This document shows, piece by piece, positions 4,013 to 58,446 of a stretch of DNA of 64,000 nt; position 1 is the first letter of the stretch, and each line of letters starts with the position of its first letter. The DNA lies in the NCBI GenBank assembly GCA_903873905.1, contig CAIQQJ010000106.1, positions 1-64,000 of the forward strand, in the 5' to 3' direction. The notes beneath the pieces were generated by a model. The model made no database searches, had not been told where the DNA came from, and was given only the letters and a program-made list of their open reading frames with translations. The DNA comes from an uncultured Flavobacteriales bacterium (GTDB lineage: Bacteria > Bacteroidota > Bacteroidia > Palsa-965). Position numbers and translations under genes: made by a program.

Positions 4013-4384
4013 ATGAAAAACATCTTCCTATTCTTGATTTTGCTATTCACGGCGAAAGTTGGTTATGCTCAGGATGCTGCCACTACGCATGCAGAATTTA
4101 ATTTTCAGGGTAAAACTTACATCGCTGACTATGATGAAGTGAAACATGTTTTGAAAATGAATGAAGAAGTTTCATTTGAGGTTTATGATGAAACAGGGGA
4201 ATGTATCAAACGTTCTTCCGGATTGACAATTGATTTCAAATCAATTCTGAAGGTTGGCGAGGAAAAAACTTTAACGGTTCGCTTTTTCAAAAAATCGAAG
4301 AAAAAGAAATCCACTTCAAATAAAAATGCCTCCATTAAACAGAAGGGCGAAATCGGCATAATGGTAATTAGGGATCAGAAATAG
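4013..4384 (+). CDS. Small exported protein of unknown function
   Basis: A 123-residue protein with a signal peptide (MKNIFLFLILLFTAKVGYAQ). The mature part begins with a beta-rich stretch (NFQGKTYIADYDEVKHVL) and contains a lysine run (KKSKKKKS) near residue 100 before a short end (GEIGIMVIRDQK). I recognise no family. It stands alone: the genes on both sides are on the other strand. Its stop is followed directly by the TATTGRG heptamer array. Confidence 0.7.
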   Translation: MKNIFLFLILLFTAKVGYAQDAATTHAEFNFQGKTYIADYDEVKHVLKMNEEVSFEVYDETGECIKRSSGLTIDFKSILKVGEEKTLTVRFFKKSKKKKSTSNKNASIKQKGEIGIMVIRDQK

Positions 4385-4433
4385 TATTGAGTATTGGGTA
4401 TTGAGTATTGAGTATTGGGTATTGGGTATTGAG
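4385..4433. repeat. Heptamer tandem repeat TATTGRG x7
   Basis: Seven consecutive 7-base units, each TATTGAG or TATTGGG, start two bases after the stop codon of the 4013 gene. The same unit builds the inverted-repeat arms at 24392-24421 and 24468-24497. It lies between convergent genes. Confidence 0.85.
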
Positions 4434-4483
4434 ATGGTGGTGGAATATTAAAATAATATTTCCAAAAAAAAACTATACCCTAC

Positions 4484-18334: not shown

Positions 18335-19795
18335 ATGGCAGAGAAAAACGAGATTTTAGAAGAGTTCACGCAGGGCGAATACAAATACGGATTCACTTCT
18401 GACATTGACACGGAGTTTGCGCCGAAAGGTTTGAATGAGGATATCGTGCGATTCATTTCCAAGAAAAAGAATGAGCCAGAGTGGATGTTGGAATTTCGCT
18501 TGAAAGCATTTCGTCATTGGTTGAAAATGGAACATCCCGATCATTGGGCGCATGTGAATTTTCCTCCAATTGATTTTCAAGATTCTAGTTATTACGCAGC
18601 TCCGAAAAAAACAAAAGTGGTTGGAAGTTTGGACGAAGTGGATCAGGAATTACTGAAGACGTTTGAAAAACTCGGAATTTCATTGGAAGAACAAAAACGT
18701 TTGGTGGGAATGGAATCGAGAATTGCAGTGGATGCTGTCATTGATTCCGTTTCTGTAAAAACAACTTTCAAGGAAGTGCTCGCTGAAAAAGGAATTATTT
18801 TCTGCTCGTTTTCAGAAGCAGTGCAAGAGCATCCAGAACTGATTAAAAAATACATGGGATCAGTTGTTCCCTACACCGATAATTTTTACGCAACATTAAA
18901 TTCCGCAGTTTTCTCTGACGGATCTTTCTGTTACATTCCAAAAGGCGTTCGTTGTCCAATGGAATTGTCAACTTATTTCAGAATAAATTCTTCCGGCACA
19001 GGACAATTCGAAAGAACATTGATTGTTGCGGATGAGGGTGCTTATGTTTCATATCTAGAAGGTTGCACGGCACCCATGCGCGATGAAAACCAATTGCATG
19101 CAGCTATTGTTGAAATTGTAACACACAAGGATGCAGAAGTGAAATATTCAACTGTACAAAATTGGTATCCTGGAAACAAGGAAGGTATTGGAGGCATTTA
19201 CAATTTTGTAACTAAACGGGGGATTTGTTTAGGTGATAATTCAAAAATTTCCTGGACACAAGTCGAAACCGGTTCAGCGATTACCTGGAAATACCCATCG
19301 GTTATCTTAAAAGGCAACCATTCTGTTGGTGAGTTTTATTCTGTTGCTGTCACCAATAATTATCAGCAAGCCGATACGGGAACAAAAATGCTGCACATCG
19401 GAAAAAACACACGCAGCACCATTATCTCGAAAGGGATTTCAGTAGGGAAAAGCCAGAATTCCTATCGTGGTTTGGTTCGTATCAGCAAAGGCGCAACTAA
19501 CGCAAGAAATTTTTCACAATGTGATTCTCTTTTGATGGGCGATAAATGTGGCGCACACACTTTCCCTTATATTGAGATACATGATAAGTCGGCAGTTGTT
19601 GAACATGAAGCAACAACTTCAAAAATCGGTGAAGACCAGATTTTCTATTGCAAGCAACGTGGCATTGACACCGAAAAGGCAATTGGATTAATCGTGAATG
19701 GATATTGCAGGGAAGTTCTAAATCAATTGCCAATGGAATTTGCTGTGGAAGCACAGAAATTATTATCGGTAAGTTTAGAAGGTTCTGTTGGATAA
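18335..19795 (+). CDS. sufB: Fe-S cluster assembly scaffold SufB
   Basis: 486 residues, close to the usual 470-495. SufB forms the SufBC2D complex, on which new [Fe-S] clusters are built from sulfur delivered by SufS-SufE. Conserved features include [13 protein letters not shown]-type sequence ([14 protein letters not shown]), the [17 protein letters not shown] segment, the beta-helix core, and the C-terminal block [20 protein letters not shown] with the His/Glu-containing [15 protein letters not shown]. Its stop at 19793-19795 is intact, although the four-helix-bundle cassette begins only 5 bases later and separates it from sufC by 520 bases. Confidence 0.97.
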
Positions 19796-19800
19796 AAAGA

Positions 19801-19837
19801 GTTGGAAAGTTTGAAAGTTGCAACGTTGGAAAGTTTA
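19801..19837 (+). repeat. Left inverted repeat of the suf cassette
   Basis: Contains GTTGGAAAGTTT twice (19801-19812 and 19825-19836) around GAAAGTTGCAAC. It is an imperfect inverted match to 20272-20310, whose complement begins GTTGGAATGTTGAAATGTTT. I align roughly 30 of 36 positions, with three short gaps. Confidence 0.7.
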
Positions 19838-19849
19838 AAATAAATAAAA

Positions 19850-20313
19850 TGGGAAAGATTAATCGATTTGAAGATATCATTGCGTGGCAAAAATCTCGTG
19901 AGTTAAATAAATTTATTTACGAAGCGACTCTTAAACATCCCTTTGTAAAAGATTTTGCATTGGTTGATCAGGTTCGACGTTCCAGCATTTCCATTCTTTC
20001 AAATATTGCTGAGGGTTTTGAGCGAAAAGGAGTTCAGGAGTTTATTCAGTTTCTAAATATTGCAAAAGCATCCTGCGCAGAATTAAGAGCACAATTATAT
20101 GTTGCATCCGATTTGGAATACATATCAATAGAAAATGGGAAAGAATTAATTGAGAAGGCAACTGACATAAGTAAAATGATTAGTGGTTTAATAAAATATC
20201 TTGAAGGGAATAAATTAGATGGTCATAAATTTCATGAACCTGAGGAAGAATACGGTGACAATAAACTTGGACAACAACTTTTCAACTTTCAAACATTTCA
20301 ACATTCCAACTGA
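19850..20313 (+). CDS. Four-helix-bundle protein (23S rRNA intervening-sequence family)
   Basis: 154 residues from the ATG at 19850; an earlier ATG at 19705 lies inside sufB. The family signature is clear: FEDIIAWQKSRELNKFIYEA, QVRRSSISILSNIAEGFERK, EFIQFLNIAKASCAELRAQL and ISGLIKYLEG. Members fold as four-helix bundles, are encoded in intervening sequences of some bacterial 23S rRNA genes, and are related to the Avd protein of diversity-generating retroelements. Their function is not known. The last 15 residues (GQQLFNFQTFQHSN end) are coded by the right inverted repeat, and the stop at 20311-20313 abuts it. The gene is read with suf. A second member is at 37294-37674. Confidence 0.9.
20272..20310 (-). 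repeat. Right inverted repeat of the suf cassette
   Basis: CAACTTTCAAACATTTCAAC and the end CATTCCAAC are the inverted counterpart of 19801-19837. The repeat overlaps the last codons of the four-helix-bundle gene and ends 5 bases before sufC. Confidence 0.7.
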
Positions 20314-20315
20314 AA

Positions 20316-21071
20316 ATGATCACAATTAAAAATCTACACGCGTCAGTTGACGGAAAAGAAATCCTAAAGGGATTGAGTCTTGAAGTGAAAGACGGTGAAG
20401 TGCATGCCATCATGGGACCTAATGGTTCCGGAAAAAGCACACTCGCTTCCGTTCTTGCAGGAAAATCAGAATATGAAGTCACTGCAGGTGAAGTGATTTT
20501 CAATGGGAAAAATTTGCTTGAGCTTTCCGCTGAAGATCGTGCACGTGAAGGCGTGTTCTTGGCATTTCAATATCCTGTGGAAATTCCAGGTGTGAGCAAT
20601 ATTAATTTTCTGAAAACTTCCATCAATGAAATTCGCGCTTATAAAGGTCTTGGACCAATTGAGCCTAAAGAATTTCTCGCAATGGTAAAAGAGAAACAAA
20701 AATTGGTTGAACTCGATGGAAAATTAACAGGTCGTTCTGTGAATGAAGGATTTTCAGGTGGCGAGAAAAAAAGAAATGAGATTTTTCAAATGGCAATGCT
20801 AGAACCGAGTTTGGGAATTTTGGATGAAACCGATTCAGGGCTTGATATTGATGCGTTACGAATTGTTGCAAATGGCGTAAATAAATTACGCGACGCAAAA
20901 CGTTCTTTCATTTTAGTAACGCACTACCAACGCTTGCTCGATTATATCGTTCCTGATTTTGTTCACGTTTTGTACAATGGAAGAATTGTAAAATCGGGAA
21001 CAAAGGAATTGGCATTGGAGTTAGAAGAAAAGGGATACGATTGGTTGAAATCAGAATCTGTTGAAGCATAA
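20316..21071 (+). CDS. sufC: Fe-S cluster assembly ATPase SufC
   Basis: 251 residues. An ABC-type ATPase of the SufBC2D scaffold complex. Walker A is GPNGSGKST (34-42), the signature is SGGEKKR (147-153), Walker B is LGILDE (166-171) followed by TDSGLDIDALR, and the switch His is in LVTHYQR. It starts 2 bases after the stop of the inserted four-helix-bundle gene, and sufD starts 3 bases after it ends. If the cassette changes the message, sufC and later genes would be affected while sufA and sufB would not. Confidence 0.97.
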   Translation: MITIKNLHASVDGKEILKGLSLEVKDGEVHAIMGPNGSGKSTLASVLAGKSEYEVTAGEVIFNGKNLLELSAEDRAREGVFLAFQYPVEIPGVSNINFLKTSINEIRAYKGLGPIEPKEFLAMVKEKQKLVELDGKLTGRSVNEGFSGGEKKRNEIFQMAMLEPSLGILDETDSGLDIDALRIVANGVNKLRDAKRSFILVTHYQRLLDYIVPDFVHVLYNGRIVKSGTKELALELEEKGYDWLKSESVEA

Positions 21072-24391: not shown

Positions 24392-24497
24392 AGTATTGAG
24401 TATTTAGTATTGGGTATTGAGACTGTGTGAGACAAAATATTTTTCACACACTTTCAGAATACCTTTTCTCAATACTCAATTCGCAATACTCAATACT
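24392..24497. repeat. 30-base inverted repeat of TATTGAG units between sufT-like and DUF2480 genes
   Basis: Left arm 24392-24421 (AGTATTGAGTATT ... GTATTGAG) is the inverted match of 24468-24497, with identity at 13 outer and 8 inner bases and part of the middle. A nested hairpin TGTGTGA / TCACACA lies in the loop (24424-24430 and 24444-24450). It shares its unit with the array at 4385-4433. Confidence 0.8.
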
Positions 24498-35764: not shown

Positions 35765-36236
35765 GCAGGGAAAAGCCTCGCAAATGTAAGATTCTATGAC
35801 TGATGAATGTGTTAATTCACTTTATTACTTAAAAGACGATCTGATCTAATGATTTGTTACAGCTACAATGTTGCTTTTTCATTCATTTTTCAGAAAGAAA
35901 ATTGACAATCATCAAGTTTTCTCCAAATACTGGTTGCGCACTTATTTCTTGGGCGTGCCACACACAGTACTGCGGGGTAGGGCTCATTCGCTTCAAGTCT
36001 CCCAACAATACTGTTGGGAGGCTTTCTCCCGAAGGGACCACTATGTGGCGTACTATCCCTCACGCAAAAAAAGAATTGCCACAAAGGCCCAGCGCCACAG
36101 CGTTTTTCAATCTGCGAAAATCTGCGAAATCTGTGGCTACAATCCCTCACGCAAAAAAAAATTGCCACAAAGGCACTAAAGCACAAAGGCCCGCAGAAAT
36201 TCAACTATCACTTTAATATTCGTTATTCAAAATCGC
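35765..36236. repeat. Intergenic repeat cluster, no gene
   Basis: Contains a GGGCGTGCC unit (from 35951) and a hairpin CCCAACAATACTGTTGGG. It also holds two copies of CCCTCACGCAAAAAAA followed by ATTGCCACAAAGGC (about 36057 and 36151), separated by AATCTGCGAAATCTGTGG. Open frames on both strands (for example 35854-36216) consist only of repeat sequence and differ between copies. I find no gene. Confidence 0.75.
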
Positions 36237-37253
36237 TTAGATAAAATCCGTTTTTTTCATATTCAACCACTCCATAGCAGCTCCACTCAAAACCATTTCC
36301 TTTTTCGCATCATCCCAATTCATAGAACGAATTAGTTCGCCAGGAATATTTTCTCCCAATGGAAAAGGATAATCACTTCCTAAAGCAACACGATTTGCGC
36401 CAAATTGATTCACTACAAAATCCAACATGTTCGGATCGTGCACGAGTGAATCAATCCAGAATTTACCAATGTAATTTTTGGGAGAAACATCATTGTCAAT
36501 CGCAACCAAATCGGGACGACAATCAAAACCGTGTTGCAATCTTCCAACTGTCGAGGGAAAAGATCCCCCACCGTGTGCGAATGCAATTCGAAGTTTGGGT
36601 AATTTTTCCATCACACCGCCAAAAACCAATGAAGCGATTGCACGCGTAGTTTCTGCTGGCATTCCCACGAGCCATGGCAACCAATATTTCTGCATTTCCT
36701 TTTCACCCATCATTTCCCAAGGATGAATAAAAACAGCCATGTCCAATGTTTCACACGCTGAAAATATTTCAAGAAATTTTGATTCATTCAAATTTTCCTG
36801 ATTGATGTTTGTCCCAATCTGAATTCCTTTCAGTCCGATATTTTTACAACGTTCCAATTCCTGTATCGCCAATTTTGAATCTTGCATGGGAATTGTTCCG
36901 AGACCCGCAAACCGTTTTGGATAACGAGTGACGATTTCCGCAATATGATCATTGAGAAATTTTGAAATCTCCAAACAGTCATTCGGTTTTGCCCAATAGG
37001 AAAACATTACCGGCACAGTGGAAAGCACTTGCACATTCACATGATGCTGATCGCATTCTTTCATCCGCTTCTCTGCGCTCCAACAATTATCTTCAATTTC
37101 ACGAAAGAATTTTCCGTCATCACGAATCATCCTCGCACAACAATTTTTATGGTGATCCAATTGAATGAATCCGCCATACCCGAATTTTTCTTTCCAACCC
37201 GGAATGTTTTCTGGAAGAATGTGGGTGTGGATATCGATGGAGAAGTGGTTCAT
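36237..37253 (-). CDS. 2-amino-3-carboxymuconate-6-semialdehyde decarboxylase (ACMSD)
   Basis: 338 residues, the usual length. ACMSD removes CO2 from the ring-opened product of 3-hydroxyanthranilate and steers tryptophan carbon away from quinolinate. It is an amidohydrolase-fold zinc enzyme. The metal ligands are in the expected places: H9 and H11 (DIHTHIL), H177 (FIHPWE), H227 (AFAHGGGSF) and D294 (GSDYPFPLG), very close to the numbering known for Pseudomonas ACMSD. The preceding enzyme (3-hydroxyanthranilate dioxygenase) is encoded upstream, separated only by the four-helix-bundle cassette. The start at 37253 lies 8 bases past the cassette. Confidence 0.95.
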   Translation of the reverse strand: MNHFSIDIHTHILPENIPGWKEKFGYGGFIQLDHHKNCCARMIRDDGKFFREIEDNCWSAEKRMKECDQHHVNVQVLSTVPVMFSYWAKPNDCLEISKFLNDHIAEIVTRYPKRFAGLGTIPMQDSKLAIQELERCKNIGLKGIQIGTNINQENLNESKFLEIFSACETLDMAVFIHPWEMMGEKEMQKYWLPWLVGMPAETTRAIASLVFGGVMEKLPKLRIAFAHGGGSFPSTVGRLQHGFDCRPDLVAIDNDVSPKNYIGKFWIDSLVHDPNMLDFVVNQFGANRVALGSDYPFPLGENIPGELIRSMNWDDAKKEMVLSGAAMEWLNMKKTDFI

Positions 37254-37261
37254 AAAAATTG

Positions 37262-37287
37262 TGTGGTCTGTGCATTGTGCACAGTGC
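37262..37287 (+). repeat. Inverted repeat of the kynurenine cassette (distal to the 4HB start)
   Basis: TGTGGTCTGTGC, A, TTGTGCACAGTGC. It matches the complement of 37684-37709 at 25 of 26 positions (A versus T in the middle). Inside it CTGTGCA and TGCACAG form a small hairpin. Confidence 0.9.
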
Positions 37288-37293
37288 GCGGTT

Positions 37294-37674
37294 TTATTTG
37301 ATTGCGATTTTCTTTTCGTAATGTTTTATGAGTCCGCTCAAAAGTTTTCTTGTGGTTGAAACGCTTTCAAAAATTTGAGCCAGGTCAGTATTCTTTAAAT
37401 AATCTAAATCCTGTGCTAAATAAAGTTGTGTTTCTACTTCATAAAGTGATCCACGAGCAATAAAGAGAAACTTCTTTGTATCCTTTGCGGAATTTCTTCC
37501 AATACCCTCAGCAATATTTGAAGGAATTGAAACAGCAGCTCTCCTGATTTGATTTGTAAGTCCAAATTGTTCCGCATGTGGAAAATCAGTCGATGCTGTA
37601 TAGATTGACTTAACTAATTTTCGTGCTTCTTTCCAAGCATTCAATTCTGTGTAACTTTTACTAGTTGTTTCCAT
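37294..37674 (-). CDS. Four-helix-bundle protein (23S rRNA intervening-sequence family)
   Basis: 126 residues from the ATG at 37674. The frame is open to 37710, but that start would lie inside the inverted repeat. Family signature: ELNAWKEARKLVKSIYTAST, GLTNQIRRAAVSIPSNIAEG, KKFLFIARGSLYEVETQLYL and LLSGLIKHYEKK, a close counterpart of the protein at 19850-20313, with the same family signatures throughout. Such proteins form four-helix bundles and are encoded in rRNA intervening sequences; the role is unknown. The gene lies entirely between the two inverted repeats and is read in the same direction as the host operon. Confidence 0.92.
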   Translation of the reverse strand: METTSKSYTELNAWKEARKLVKSIYTASTDFPHAEQFGLTNQIRRAAVSIPSNIAEGIGRNSAKDTKKFLFIARGSLYEVETQLYLAQDLDYLKNTDLAQIFESVSTTRKLLSGLIKHYEKKIAIK

Positions 37675-37683
37675 AAACACACA

Positions 37684-37709
37684 GCACTGTGCACAAAGCA
37701 CAGACCACA
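37684..37709 (-). repeat. Inverted repeat of the kynurenine cassette (proximal to the 4HB start)
   Basis: Plus strand reads GCACTGTGCACAAAGC then ACAGACCACA, the inverted copy of 37262-37287. In the minus-strand transcript it comes 5 bases after the dioxygenase stop. Confidence 0.9.
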
Positions 37710-37714
37710 TTTTT

Positions 37715-38248
37715 TTAATGACTACTAACTTTTACTTCTTCTGGTGGAATCATTACATAACCACATTTCTTGCATGTCCTTAAATCTTCACTGCCATAAA
37801 ATTTCGCGAACACACCTTGAAATTGATTGACAATATCGGTAAGCGCAAAATATTCTTCGTACAATTTTGAATTGCATTTTTCACAGAACCAAAGCAAACC
37901 ATCTTTTTCATTTGCGTGTCGTTTGCGTTCCATAACGAGCCCAATTGAATTTGCTCCTCGAACAGGATTATGTGGAACATTCGGTGGCAAGAGAAAAATA
38001 TCACCTTCCCTAATCGGAACATCAATTGATTTTCCATCTTCCTGAATTTTCACGAGAATATCCCCTTCGAGTTGATAGAAAAACTCTTCGCTCTCATTGA
38101 AGTGATAATCCTTTCTGGAATTTGGTCCGCCGACCACCATTACGATGAATTCGGTGTCTTTGTAAACAACTTTATTGTTTACGGGCGGTTTTAATAAATG
38201 ACGATTTTCGTCAATCCATTTTTTGAAGTTAAACGGACGTGTGATCAT
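37715..38248 (-). CDS. nbaC: 3-hydroxyanthranilate 3,4-dioxygenase
   Basis: 177 residues. A cupin enzyme that opens the ring of 3-hydroxyanthranilate in tryptophan (kynurenine) breakdown. Fe(II) ligands are H49, E55 and H93 (YHFNESEEF and NVPHNP). A C-terminal rubredoxin-like metal site has C122, C125, C159 and C162 (FCEKC and CKKC), as in the bacterial enzymes. Its product is the substrate of the ACMSD gene downstream, from which it is separated by the cassette at 37262-37709. The start lies divergent to the zinc-ribbon gene at 38412. Confidence 0.95.
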   Translation of the reverse strand: MITRPFNFKKWIDENRHLLKPPVNNKVVYKDTEFIVMVVGGPNSRKDYHFNESEEFFYQLEGDILVKIQEDGKSIDVPIREGDIFLLPPNVPHNPVRGANSIGLVMERKRHANEKDGLLWFCEKCNSKLYEEYFALTDIVNQFQGVFAKFYGSEDLRTCKKCGYVMIPPEEVKVSSH

Positions 38249-42073: not shown

Positions 42074-43171
42074 ATGAAAATAAAAGTTTCCCTGCTTGCT
42101 ATTTTTATAAGCACATTCCTTTCCGCACAAATTACGGTTTCACTCCTGAGTTCAACTGCAAGTTGTCTTTTGCCATGCAACGGAACCGTGAACGTAATTG
42201 CAACAGGAGGAACTCCACCGTATTCATACACTATTCTTCCCAATGCAATTAACAATGCCACTGGTAGTTTCACAGGTATTTGTTCTGGTTCTTACACTGT
42301 CACTGTTACAGATGCAACTTTTAACATTGGAACTTATTCTTCAACAGTTGCAACCATTTCTGCGCCGAGTATCACAACTGTCACCACAACTGGAATATTG
42401 CCACCTTCAAACTACGAAGCAACTGTTACTTATACAGGTGGACAACCGCGATACATTGTGCAATGGTTCTATGAGCCATCCGGAGTGATGATTAGACAGG
42501 ATCTTGTTTCGACAATGAATGATACAATAACACATCTCTCTCCTGGAGATTATGGTGTGATCGTAACTGATTCCGTCAATAGTGTTTCTGGATGCCAAGG
42601 ATTAAATCAAGCACCCTATTTATTTTCCATCTGTGACCCATCTATTGGTGTAGGCTTTATCAATTACACACCAAATGACACCGTATGTCCTGGCACACCA
42701 ATTACGATCAATTACATTACTGTACCTATGGGTCAGATCAATATTTTATATCAGGTTTTCATGTCCGATAATCCAAATTGTGATCCTTCCGCATCCAATG
42801 GCACTTTTTCATGCAACATAAGTCAAACAACAACATTCACTGGTTTTTGGGCTTATTCAGCTACTTGTGCTCCTATTCCCTTTGCACCAGTCACCATTAC
42901 CGTTCTTCCATGTGTGGGAATAAATGAGCAGCAGTCGACTAATTTTGTTTCCATTTTTCCAAATCCTGGCAATGGAGCTTTCACTTTAAAAACGAATCAG
43001 ACTACTGCAGTTCAATTGGAGATCTTTGATGAAACAGGAAGGAACTGTTATACTTCATCTTCAAAAAATGGAGACGAAATTTTTACTGGACTGAAATCTG
43101 GAATTTATTTCATTCGCATTCTTTCTGATGCTGGAACCAAAATAGAAAAGTTGGTGATTACCAATAAGTAA
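42074..43171 (+). CDS. SprB-repeat-like T9SS type A secreted protein
   Basis: 365 residues with a signal peptide (MKIKVSLLAIFISTFLSAQ). At about 30-100 is a SprB-like repeat (CLLPCNGTVNVIATGGTPPY, then GSYTVTVTDATFN). A second SprB-like or Ig-like region follows to about 280, and the C-terminal T9SS sorting domain reads VSIFPNPGNGAFTLKT, then SGIYFIRILSD and EKLVITNK. Probably a surface protein. No close partners; the next gene is convergent beyond a repeat element. Confidence 0.83.
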   Translation: MKIKVSLLAIFISTFLSAQITVSLLSSTASCLLPCNGTVNVIATGGTPPYSYTILPNAINNATGSFTGICSGSYTVTVTDATFNIGTYSSTVATISAPSITTVTTTGILPPSNYEATVTYTGGQPRYIVQWFYEPSGVMIRQDLVSTMNDTITHLSPGDYGVIVTDSVNSVSGCQGLNQAPYLFSICDPSIGVGFINYTPNDTVCPGTPITINYITVPMGQINILYQVFMSDNPNCDPSASNGTFSCNISQTTTFTGFWAYSATCAPIPFAPVTITVLPCVGINEQQSTNFVSIFPNPGNGAFTLKTNQTTAVQLEIFDETGRNCYTSSSKNGDEIFTGLKSGIYFIRILSDAGTKIEKLVITNK

Positions 43172-43417
43172 CCTCACCCCTTTTGTGAGTTTGTTTTAAG
43201 CAGAAACTTTGGAGAATTCCCCTCTCCGAAGGAGAGGGGTGAGTGAGACCTCAGATGAAGGAGAAGCAATTAATATTAGTTTGTTCAGAAATTTCAATTT
43301 CAAAAAACACATACTCGAAATATTTTTGAATACCGAGAACGTTCTCGCCCCTCTCCTTCGGAGAGGGGGATTCTGAAATGTTTCTCACAATTACAAACTC
43401 CGTAAAGGGGTGAGGTT
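43170..43417. repeat. MITE-like repeat element with terminal inverted repeats
   Basis: AACCTCACCCCTTT (from 43170) and its inverted copy near 43404-43417 bound the element, with GAGTTTG also shared. Two perfect hairpins lie inside: CCCCTCTCCGAAGGAGAGGG (43219-43239) and CCCCTCTCCTTCGGAGAGGG (43348-43368). It fills the space between two convergent genes and may act as terminator. No gene inside. Confidence 0.75.
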
Positions 43418-44114
43418 ATTTTGCAATCAAACGGAATCCTCTTCCGTGAATATTCATGATTTCTACGGTTGGATCATCCTTCAAATATTTTCTAAGCTTC
43501 GCGATATATACATCCATACTGCGTGAATTGAAATAACTGTCGTCACCCCAAATTGTATTCAATGCGAATGAACGATCAAGTACTTCGTTTTTATGAAGCG
43601 CCAGCAAACGCAAAAGATCCGCTTCTTTCGAAGTAAGTTTCTGCGGCTTATTGCCGAATTCCAACATTTGTCTTGTATAATCGTATTTGTAATCGCCGAT
43701 CGTAAAAAGAGTTTGCTCCATGTTGAGCGCGCCACCTTTTGTTCTTCGGAGAATTGCCTTTAAACGCAACAGCAATTCTTCCATGCTGAATGGTTTGGTA
43801 ATATAATCATCGGCACCAGCATTGAATCCCTCAATTGTATCTTCCTTCATCGACTTCGCGGTGAGAAATACAACAGGAATGTCCTTGTTGATGGTTCGGA
43901 TTTCTTTCGCGAGTGTGTAACCGTCTTTAACGGGCATCATCACATCGAGCAGACAGAGATCAAAAGTTCCTTTTCGGAACTGATCAAATCCTTCTTTTCC
44001 GTTTGTCGCGAGAACGGTTGCATATCCCTTCGCGTCGAGATATTCCTGCAGAAGTTTTCCGAGATTCGGATCGTCCTCAGCGAGGAGAATTTTGGCTTTT
44101 GTTTCTGTACTCAT
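43416..44114 (-). CDS. OmpR-family response regulator (RprY-like)
   Basis: 232 residues. Receiver with D14-D15, phospho-acceptor D57 (LCLLDVMMP), T85 and K107 (YITKPFS), all present, followed by a winged-helix DNA-binding domain (about 130-230: KLTSKEADLLRLLALHKNEV, then YFNSRSMDVYIAKLRKYLKD). The pair with the kinase gene upstream resembles Bacteroides RprXY. The ATG overlaps the kinase stop (ATGA at 44111-44114), so kinase and regulator are coupled. Confidence 0.95.
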   Translation of the reverse strand: MSTETKAKILLAEDDPNLGKLLQEYLDAKGYATVLATNGKEGFDQFRKGTFDLCLLDVMMPVKDGYTLAKEIRTINKDIPVVFLTAKSMKEDTIEGFNAGADDYITKPFSMEELLLRLKAILRRTKGGALNMEQTLFTIGDYKYDYTRQMLEFGNKPQKLTSKEADLLRLLALHKNEVLDRSFALNTIWGDDSYFNSRSMDVYIAKLRKYLKDDPTVEIMNIHGRGFRLIAK

Positions 44115-47242: not shown

Positions 47243-47329
47243 GGGTACGAATTACGAATTTTTGCGAATAAATACGAAAAATGAAAATGCAATTCGTAAC
47301 TATTCGTTTTTGATTCGTAATTCGTACCC
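47243..47329. repeat. 17-base perfect inverted repeat between convergent genes
   Basis: GGGTACGAATTACGAAT (47243-47259) is the exact inverted copy of 47313-47329, with further TACGAA pairing inside. The stem could terminate both convergent genes. Confidence 0.75.
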
Positions 47330-58372: not shown

Positions 58373-58446
58373 TTGACCGATGGTGTAACTGGCAACACGT
58401 TTGGTTTTGGTCCAAAAGAGTCCAGGTTCGAGCCCTGGTCGGTCAA
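58373..58446 (+). tRNA. tRNA-Gln (anticodon TTG)
   Basis: The acceptor stem TGACCGA (58373-58379) pairs with TCGGTCA (58439-58445) over seven bases. The anticodon stem TTTGG / CCAAA bounds the loop TTTTGGT, with TTG at the anticodon position. The T-arm reads CCAGG TTCGAGC CCTGG. The CCA end is not encoded (the sequence continues ACAG). A strong promoter is upstream and a terminator follows. Confidence 0.95.

Follow-up and report, generated by a model that had tools for sequence, protein, structure and literature searches.

Four-helix-bundle genes framed by inverted arrays of seven- or eight-nucleotide units: a candidate class of transposase-less mobile elements in bacterial operons

In the window, by which we mean the whole 64,000-nucleotide stretch of DNA from an uncultured Flavobacteriales bacterium that was analyzed, a small gene separates the gene for 3-hydroxyanthranilate 3,4-dioxygenase from that for an amidohydrolase resembling ACMSD (Table 1). 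Its product belongs to the four-helix-bundle (FHB) family, also called 23S rRNA IVP (PF05635), which it matches at E 1.6e-37 (128.4 bits against a cut-off of 33.8), and it matches TIGR02436 (four helix bundle protein) at 124.3 bits against a cut-off of 24. The mechanically predicted ORF (37294-37710) begins within one of the flanking repeats, and the ATG at 37674, giving 126 aa, is the likelier start. A preliminary description of this DNA had reported one such gene enclosed by inverted repeats matching at 25 of 26 bases, 5 nt past the dioxygenase stop and 8 nt ahead of the next start; the complementarity of the repeats, the family assignment and both gaps were borne out. Its naming of the host enzymes held for the dioxygenase, which has an NCBIfam match, and in part for the second enzyme, for which no NCBIfam model reached threshold and whose PF04909 match is consistent with ACMSD.

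Table 1. Positions of the FHB elements, their host genes and related repeats in the window.
Feature	Position	Strand	Remarks
5' arm of the window element (gene sense)	37684..37709	-	heptamer array GTGGTCT GTGCTTT GTGCACA GTGC
3' arm of the window element	37262..37287	-	25/26 complementary to 5' arm; imperfect pairing on to 37250/37721
FHB gene (PF05635 / TIGR02436)	37294..37674	-	126 aa, pI 9.4, between the arms
3-hydroxyanthranilate 3,4-dioxygenase, upstream host gene	37715..38248	-	NCBIfam match
PF04909 amidohydrolase, ACMSD-like, downstream host gene	36237..37253	-	profile match
5' arm of the second FHB element	19801..19828	+	octamers GTTGGAAA..
Second FHB gene, 154 aa	19849..20313	+	between sufB (18335-19795) and sufC (20316-21071)
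3' arm of the second FHB element	20275..20302	+	overlaps the 3' end of its ORF
Gene-less heptamer hairpin, AGTATTG family	24392..24497	+	3 nt past one suf cluster gene, 5 nt ahead of the next co-directional gene
Gene-less heptamer hairpin, TACGAAT family	47243..47329	.	between convergent genes
AGTATTG heptamer array	4382..4434	.	inverted partner not detected

The two repeats, hereafter the arms, continue as imperfect pairing to a length of 38 nt (87%). The 396 nt between them contain the FHB gene only and encode no transposase. Their score is 23, while Markov versions of the window yield 0-2 hairpins scoring at least 13. The repeats around both FHB genes rank among the longest inverted repeats of the window, and no window gene other than these two is so flanked; a scan with mechanical gene bounds returned no window gene with flanking inverted repeats scoring at least 13, both FHB genes being missed there as their longest ORFs enter the arms. 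The element lies between two protein-coding genes, outside any 23S rRNA gene; Rfam covariance models detect no rRNA in the window, where they find only a tRNA (58374-58446), and they assign no RNA family to the window element or to four FHB loci. The ends of the element are fuzzy and no target-site duplication is evident by eye. Each arm is a tandem array of the heptamer GTGCNNN, and the small internal hairpin noted previously does exist (GTGCA..TGCAC), as a by-product of these units. Overlooked in the preliminary description were the array structure itself, in units of 7 or 8 nt, the very large size of the class and the second copy in the same window. Two further repeats were recorded in the window. 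The longest inverted repeat of the window (43166-43421; 78 nt, 81%, with 100 nt between its arms) is of different make (CCCCTCTCC..GGAGAGGGG), and just downstream of the ACMSD-like gene, at 36051-36200, a stretch that ends in GCCACAAAGGC and resembles the AGGCACAA arm family occurs twice in direct orientation (95%).

The genome contains 16 PF05635 matches, most with long inverted repeats whose sequences differ. Across the same taxonomic class, locus-specific arms were detected at 87 of 103 FHB loci, against 1.8% of control flanks mismatched between genomes, and under a stricter score at 72 of 103 against 0.6%; neighboring ORFs reached the lower score in 4 of 110 cases, and 16 of the 103 FHB genes have no detectable arms. 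The association reaches further, since in named genomes (80 relatives) arms accompany 35 of 55 loci in Bacteroidota and 18 of 25 in other phyla, with a control rate of 4%. The arm period is 7 in 48 of 72 loci and 8 in 18, with a median of 4 units per arm, and variants of the unit are mirrored between the arms (identity 0.87 in register versus 0.74 when shifted by one unit). The 5' arm is G-rich. Distances from arm to gene are short, often 0-50 nt ahead of the start and 0-25 nt past the stop. On the protein side, 61% of FHB proteins have a pI above 8.5, and five chains make up the entry of 2gsc, a homologue of known structure. The solved homologue XCC0516 is a toroidal homopentamer (PMC4990558).

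Arm similarity rises with the identity of the enclosed protein. Among pairs with at least 55% protein identity and no homologous flank, it averaged 8.97 compared with 5.70 after permutation (0 of 5000 permutations), and unit length agreed in 91%. When the 7- or 8-nt label is placed on the FHB tree it requires 13 changes, against 23.3 for shuffled labels (0 of 500), and one marked clade, with members from KSB1, Desulfobacteraceae, Nitrospirae, Flavobacterium and Chitinophagaceae, has AGGCACAA-type octamers in common. Because arm sequence and unit length thus track the FHB clade at non-syntenic loci, gene and arms travel together. The four close pairs with computable dS gave dN/dS of 0.07-0.12 and dS of about 2, a saturation which argues that shared arm units do not simply reflect recent common ancestry. 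A comparison of own arms with those of orthologs gave 48/48; it is partly circular, the arms having been picked for pairing within their own locus, and carries little weight. No near-identical FHB copies were found within a single genome, the best pair sharing 79% protein identity, so activity is either slow or long past.

For three arm families the genome of origin was searched, and dispersed gene-less relatives turned up for all three: six hairpins with loops of 11-40 nt for the TGTGC family of the window element, more than ten loci for the AGTATTG family and about twenty for the AGTTCGG family, with some matches in the latter two lacking a detected partner arm. One FHB-bearing member was found in each family, that of the hairpin at 24392..24497 being the element at G000:C171:44575-45039, and a foreign arm gave four weak matches. 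The loops of the gene-less hairpins show no apparent conservation, in contrast to what simple copy-paste products would show. A comparison of hairpin density with the number of FHB genes, on 80-kb stretches from 10 genomes, met too few hairpins for a verdict. The excess of gene-less over FHB-bearing members within the same arm families of this genome, together with the various gene-less hairpins at the dioxygenase-ACMSD junction of relatives, could suggest that FHB genes insert into hairpins already present, so that the arms belong to the host and not to the element. We regard this as improbable, given that at non-syntenic sites, in different genomes and even different phyla, the arm units go with the clade of the FHB.

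The junction itself was compared among relatives. In several of them just a few to about 45 nt lie between the dioxygenase gene and the ACMSD-like one, the distance before the start codon being 3 nt in L037, 8 in L042, 9 in both L044 and L053, 17 in L043, 33 in L039, 41 in L032 and 43 in L034, so that the short clean junctions expected in the preliminary description are indeed seen. A relative of the same genus (L027) carries a gene-less heptamer hairpin of different sequence here, a third type of hairpin is present in L046 but not in L042 of the same genus, whose junction is clean, and L036, from another family, has an armless FHB gene. Empty, hairpin-only and gene-bearing states thus all occur, which makes this junction a hot spot for insertions. 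The two outcomes named beforehand as contrary to a mobile cassette, an armless gene at this place in all relatives or other genome copies without inverted repeats, were both absent.

Placement within operons is general. FHB genes are co-directional with both neighbors in 134 of 169 cases (79%), against 247 of 511 control genes (48%), and junctions confirmed by NCBIfam include FadB|thiolase, SufB|SufC, SdhA|SdhB, NuoH|NuoI, ScoA|ScoB, CimA/LeuA|LeuB, PdhA|E2, the N and C parts of MetH, an ArgE/DapE-family gene|ArgH and HemC|HemE. Many junctions recur across families. Junction labels are clustered on the FHB tree (10 changes, with a minimum of 6 and 25 when shuffled), implying long retention, and several junctions look mostly vertically inherited. 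A single origin of the sufB|sufC FHBs was rejected (AU p=0.0003), and the same test gave no rejection at fadB|thiolase (p 0.22) or sdhA|sdhB (p 0.20). The earlier suggestion of a mobile cassette without a transposase is well supported by the clean short junctions in several relatives, the arms moving with the gene to other sites, the dispersed gene-less copies and the rejected single origin at sufB|sufC.

Much of this evidence would also suit a host regulatory module, in which the FHB protein would be a nucleic-acid-binding regulator, the arrays its sites, the gene-less hairpins its regulon and its own arms a means of autoregulation. Such a module would explain the specific co-variation of protein and arms, the strong purifying selection, the long retention at orthologous junctions and the position inside pathway operons, and paired inverted heptamer and octamer arrays in Geobacter metallireducens have been interpreted as sites of a global regulator (PMC2700814). 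It accounts poorly for genomes with up to 16 diverged FHBs and different arms, for host junctions that share no evident physiological theme, for the patchy presence at the dioxygenase-ACMSD junction among relatives and for single junctions that can house unrelated FHB clades, and we consider it unlikely, though deserving of serious attention.

The preliminary description had also stressed a transcript able to fold end to end. The fold forms in silico (472 nt, z = -6.6), and with the location of the elements inside operons and the cutting of the Coxiella IVS RNA by RNase III (PMC4990558) it could point to an mRNA-processing element, where RNase III would cut the stem to separate the host messages and selection would act on the RNA stem. 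Against this, the mismatches in 152 arm pairs, read as sense RNA, comprise 161 G.U and 250 A.C, with no G.U enrichment; the bias is the opposite one, to which the richness of the upstream arm in A contributes. The stem can form, its status as a selected or key feature is not supported, and mRNA processing appears highly improbable as the basis of the class.

We lean towards the interpretation that these are selfish, intervening-sequence-like elements whose FHB protein recognizes its own arrays, in a manner resembling REP-RAYT systems. The element consists of an FHB gene between two inverted arrays, each with about four repeats of 7 or 8 nt, and gene and arms would be inherited, be transferred and diversify jointly. 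Having no transposase of its own, the element would settle co-directionally between operon genes, where read-through could express the FHB gene, and it may depend on this. The co-variation of protein and arms suggests that the FHB protein, which is basic and in XCC0516 forms a pentameric ring, binds its own tandem-unit arrays, presumably both in cis and in trans. Recognition of the arrays would then promote the upkeep or spread of the cassette and, in trans, of its gene-less hairpin relatives, in much the way that RAYT acts on REPs, while a host or trans-acting enzyme would provide strand cleavage and synthesis. Against the selfish-element interpretation, no transposition has been observed and no target-site duplication seen. 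The missing near-identical copies, the mostly vertical inheritance at several junctions, the armless FHB genes, the seemingly unconserved hairpin loops and the Coxiella FHB protein, which is probably not made, also count against it.

In its logic the REP-RAYT system is the nearest analogue (PMC2817692): there too a gene lies between two co-evolving inverted repeats and the genome has abundant gene-less cognate repeats, whereas here the gene encodes an FHB protein and no transposase, and the arms are tandem 7/8-nt arrays. Another explanation would have the arms as MITE ends moved by a known transposase (such as Y1/RAYT), or by a reverse transcriptase as for Avd of diversity-generating retroelements. 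Counts of FHB and strong Y1 matches do correlate (Spearman 0.53, 33 genomes), and Avd is remotely related to the four-helix-bundle proteins (NCBIfam E 4.5e-4, below cut-off). However, RAYT genes are flanked by REP-like palindromes and not by 7/8-mer arrays, genomes with 12 and 8 FHBs have no strong Y1 matches, and reverse transcriptase is absent from most FHB-bearing relatives; unlike in a diversity-generating retroelement there is none at the locus, the only match in the genome lying on another contig. Reverse transcriptase and RAYT are thus unlikely partners, and we give this explanation hardly any credence. The RAYT-type Y1 genes of the same genomes (PF01797 loci L319-L366) often have REP-like palindromes and form a separate system.

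The selfish-element interpretation would also place the 23S rRNA intervening sequences (IVS) that contain an FHB gene, which would be members that landed in rRNA helices. The IVS of Coxiella burnetii, in rRNA helix 45, measures about 430 nt; its 28-bp inverted-repeat stem closes a loop with an S23p/FHB ORF, and heptameric GACAGAT repeats precede the ORF. This IVS is excised by RNase III, and its ORF is decaying and the protein probably not made (PMC4990558). Like this IVS, and that of Leptospira, the window element has an FHB ORF inside a long inverted-repeat stem, with arms of 26 nt beside the 28 bp in Coxiella; unlike it, the elements here occupy protein-coding operons and their ORF family is under purifying selection. 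The Geobacter metallireducens arrays are likewise inverted pairs of 3-5 tandem 7/8-nt units, dispersed and variably spaced, but the accessible part of that source reads them as IHF/HU-type global regulator sites and makes no link to FHBs (PMC2700814).

Hairpins of short units inside operons have been described case by case, whether as sites for regulators or as simple repeats. The FHB family is known as '23S rRNA intervening sequence protein' and, to our knowledge, has had no role assigned to it. No statement linking FHBs to short-unit inverted repeats was found in the literature searched, subscription literature and supplements lying outside the search. More tentatively, we propose that FHBs are the sequence-specific partners of the widespread operon hairpins with 7/8-nt units and that together they constitute a phylum-spanning, transposase-less mobile class of which the rRNA intervening sequences are one branch; each protomer of the FHB ring might read a single repeat unit. 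If FHBs and hairpins do form one system, the origin and spread of both rRNA intervening sequences and hairpins become directly testable, the sequence and unit length of an array would be predictable from its FHB, which gives binding and mobility assays ready-made matched and mismatched substrates, and many core operons (suf, sdh, nuo, metH, pdh, hem) would contain inserted genes annotated just as 'four helix bundle protein'.

No FHB relative was found in phage records, and plasmid records contain 27 plasmids with FHB relatives, mostly cyanobacterial; those on Nostoc, Calothrix and Anabaena plasmids (H1-H20) are annotated as S23 ribosomal or four helix bundle protein. In a Nitrospirae MAG (L218), an FHB gene with AGGCACAG arms apparently has, judged by translation, a cas1-like gene on one side and a CRISPR-like array on the other. 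At another locus (L223), the heptamer arrays enter the coding sequence of the downstream gene and appear in its protein as a repeated DHRSQIT.
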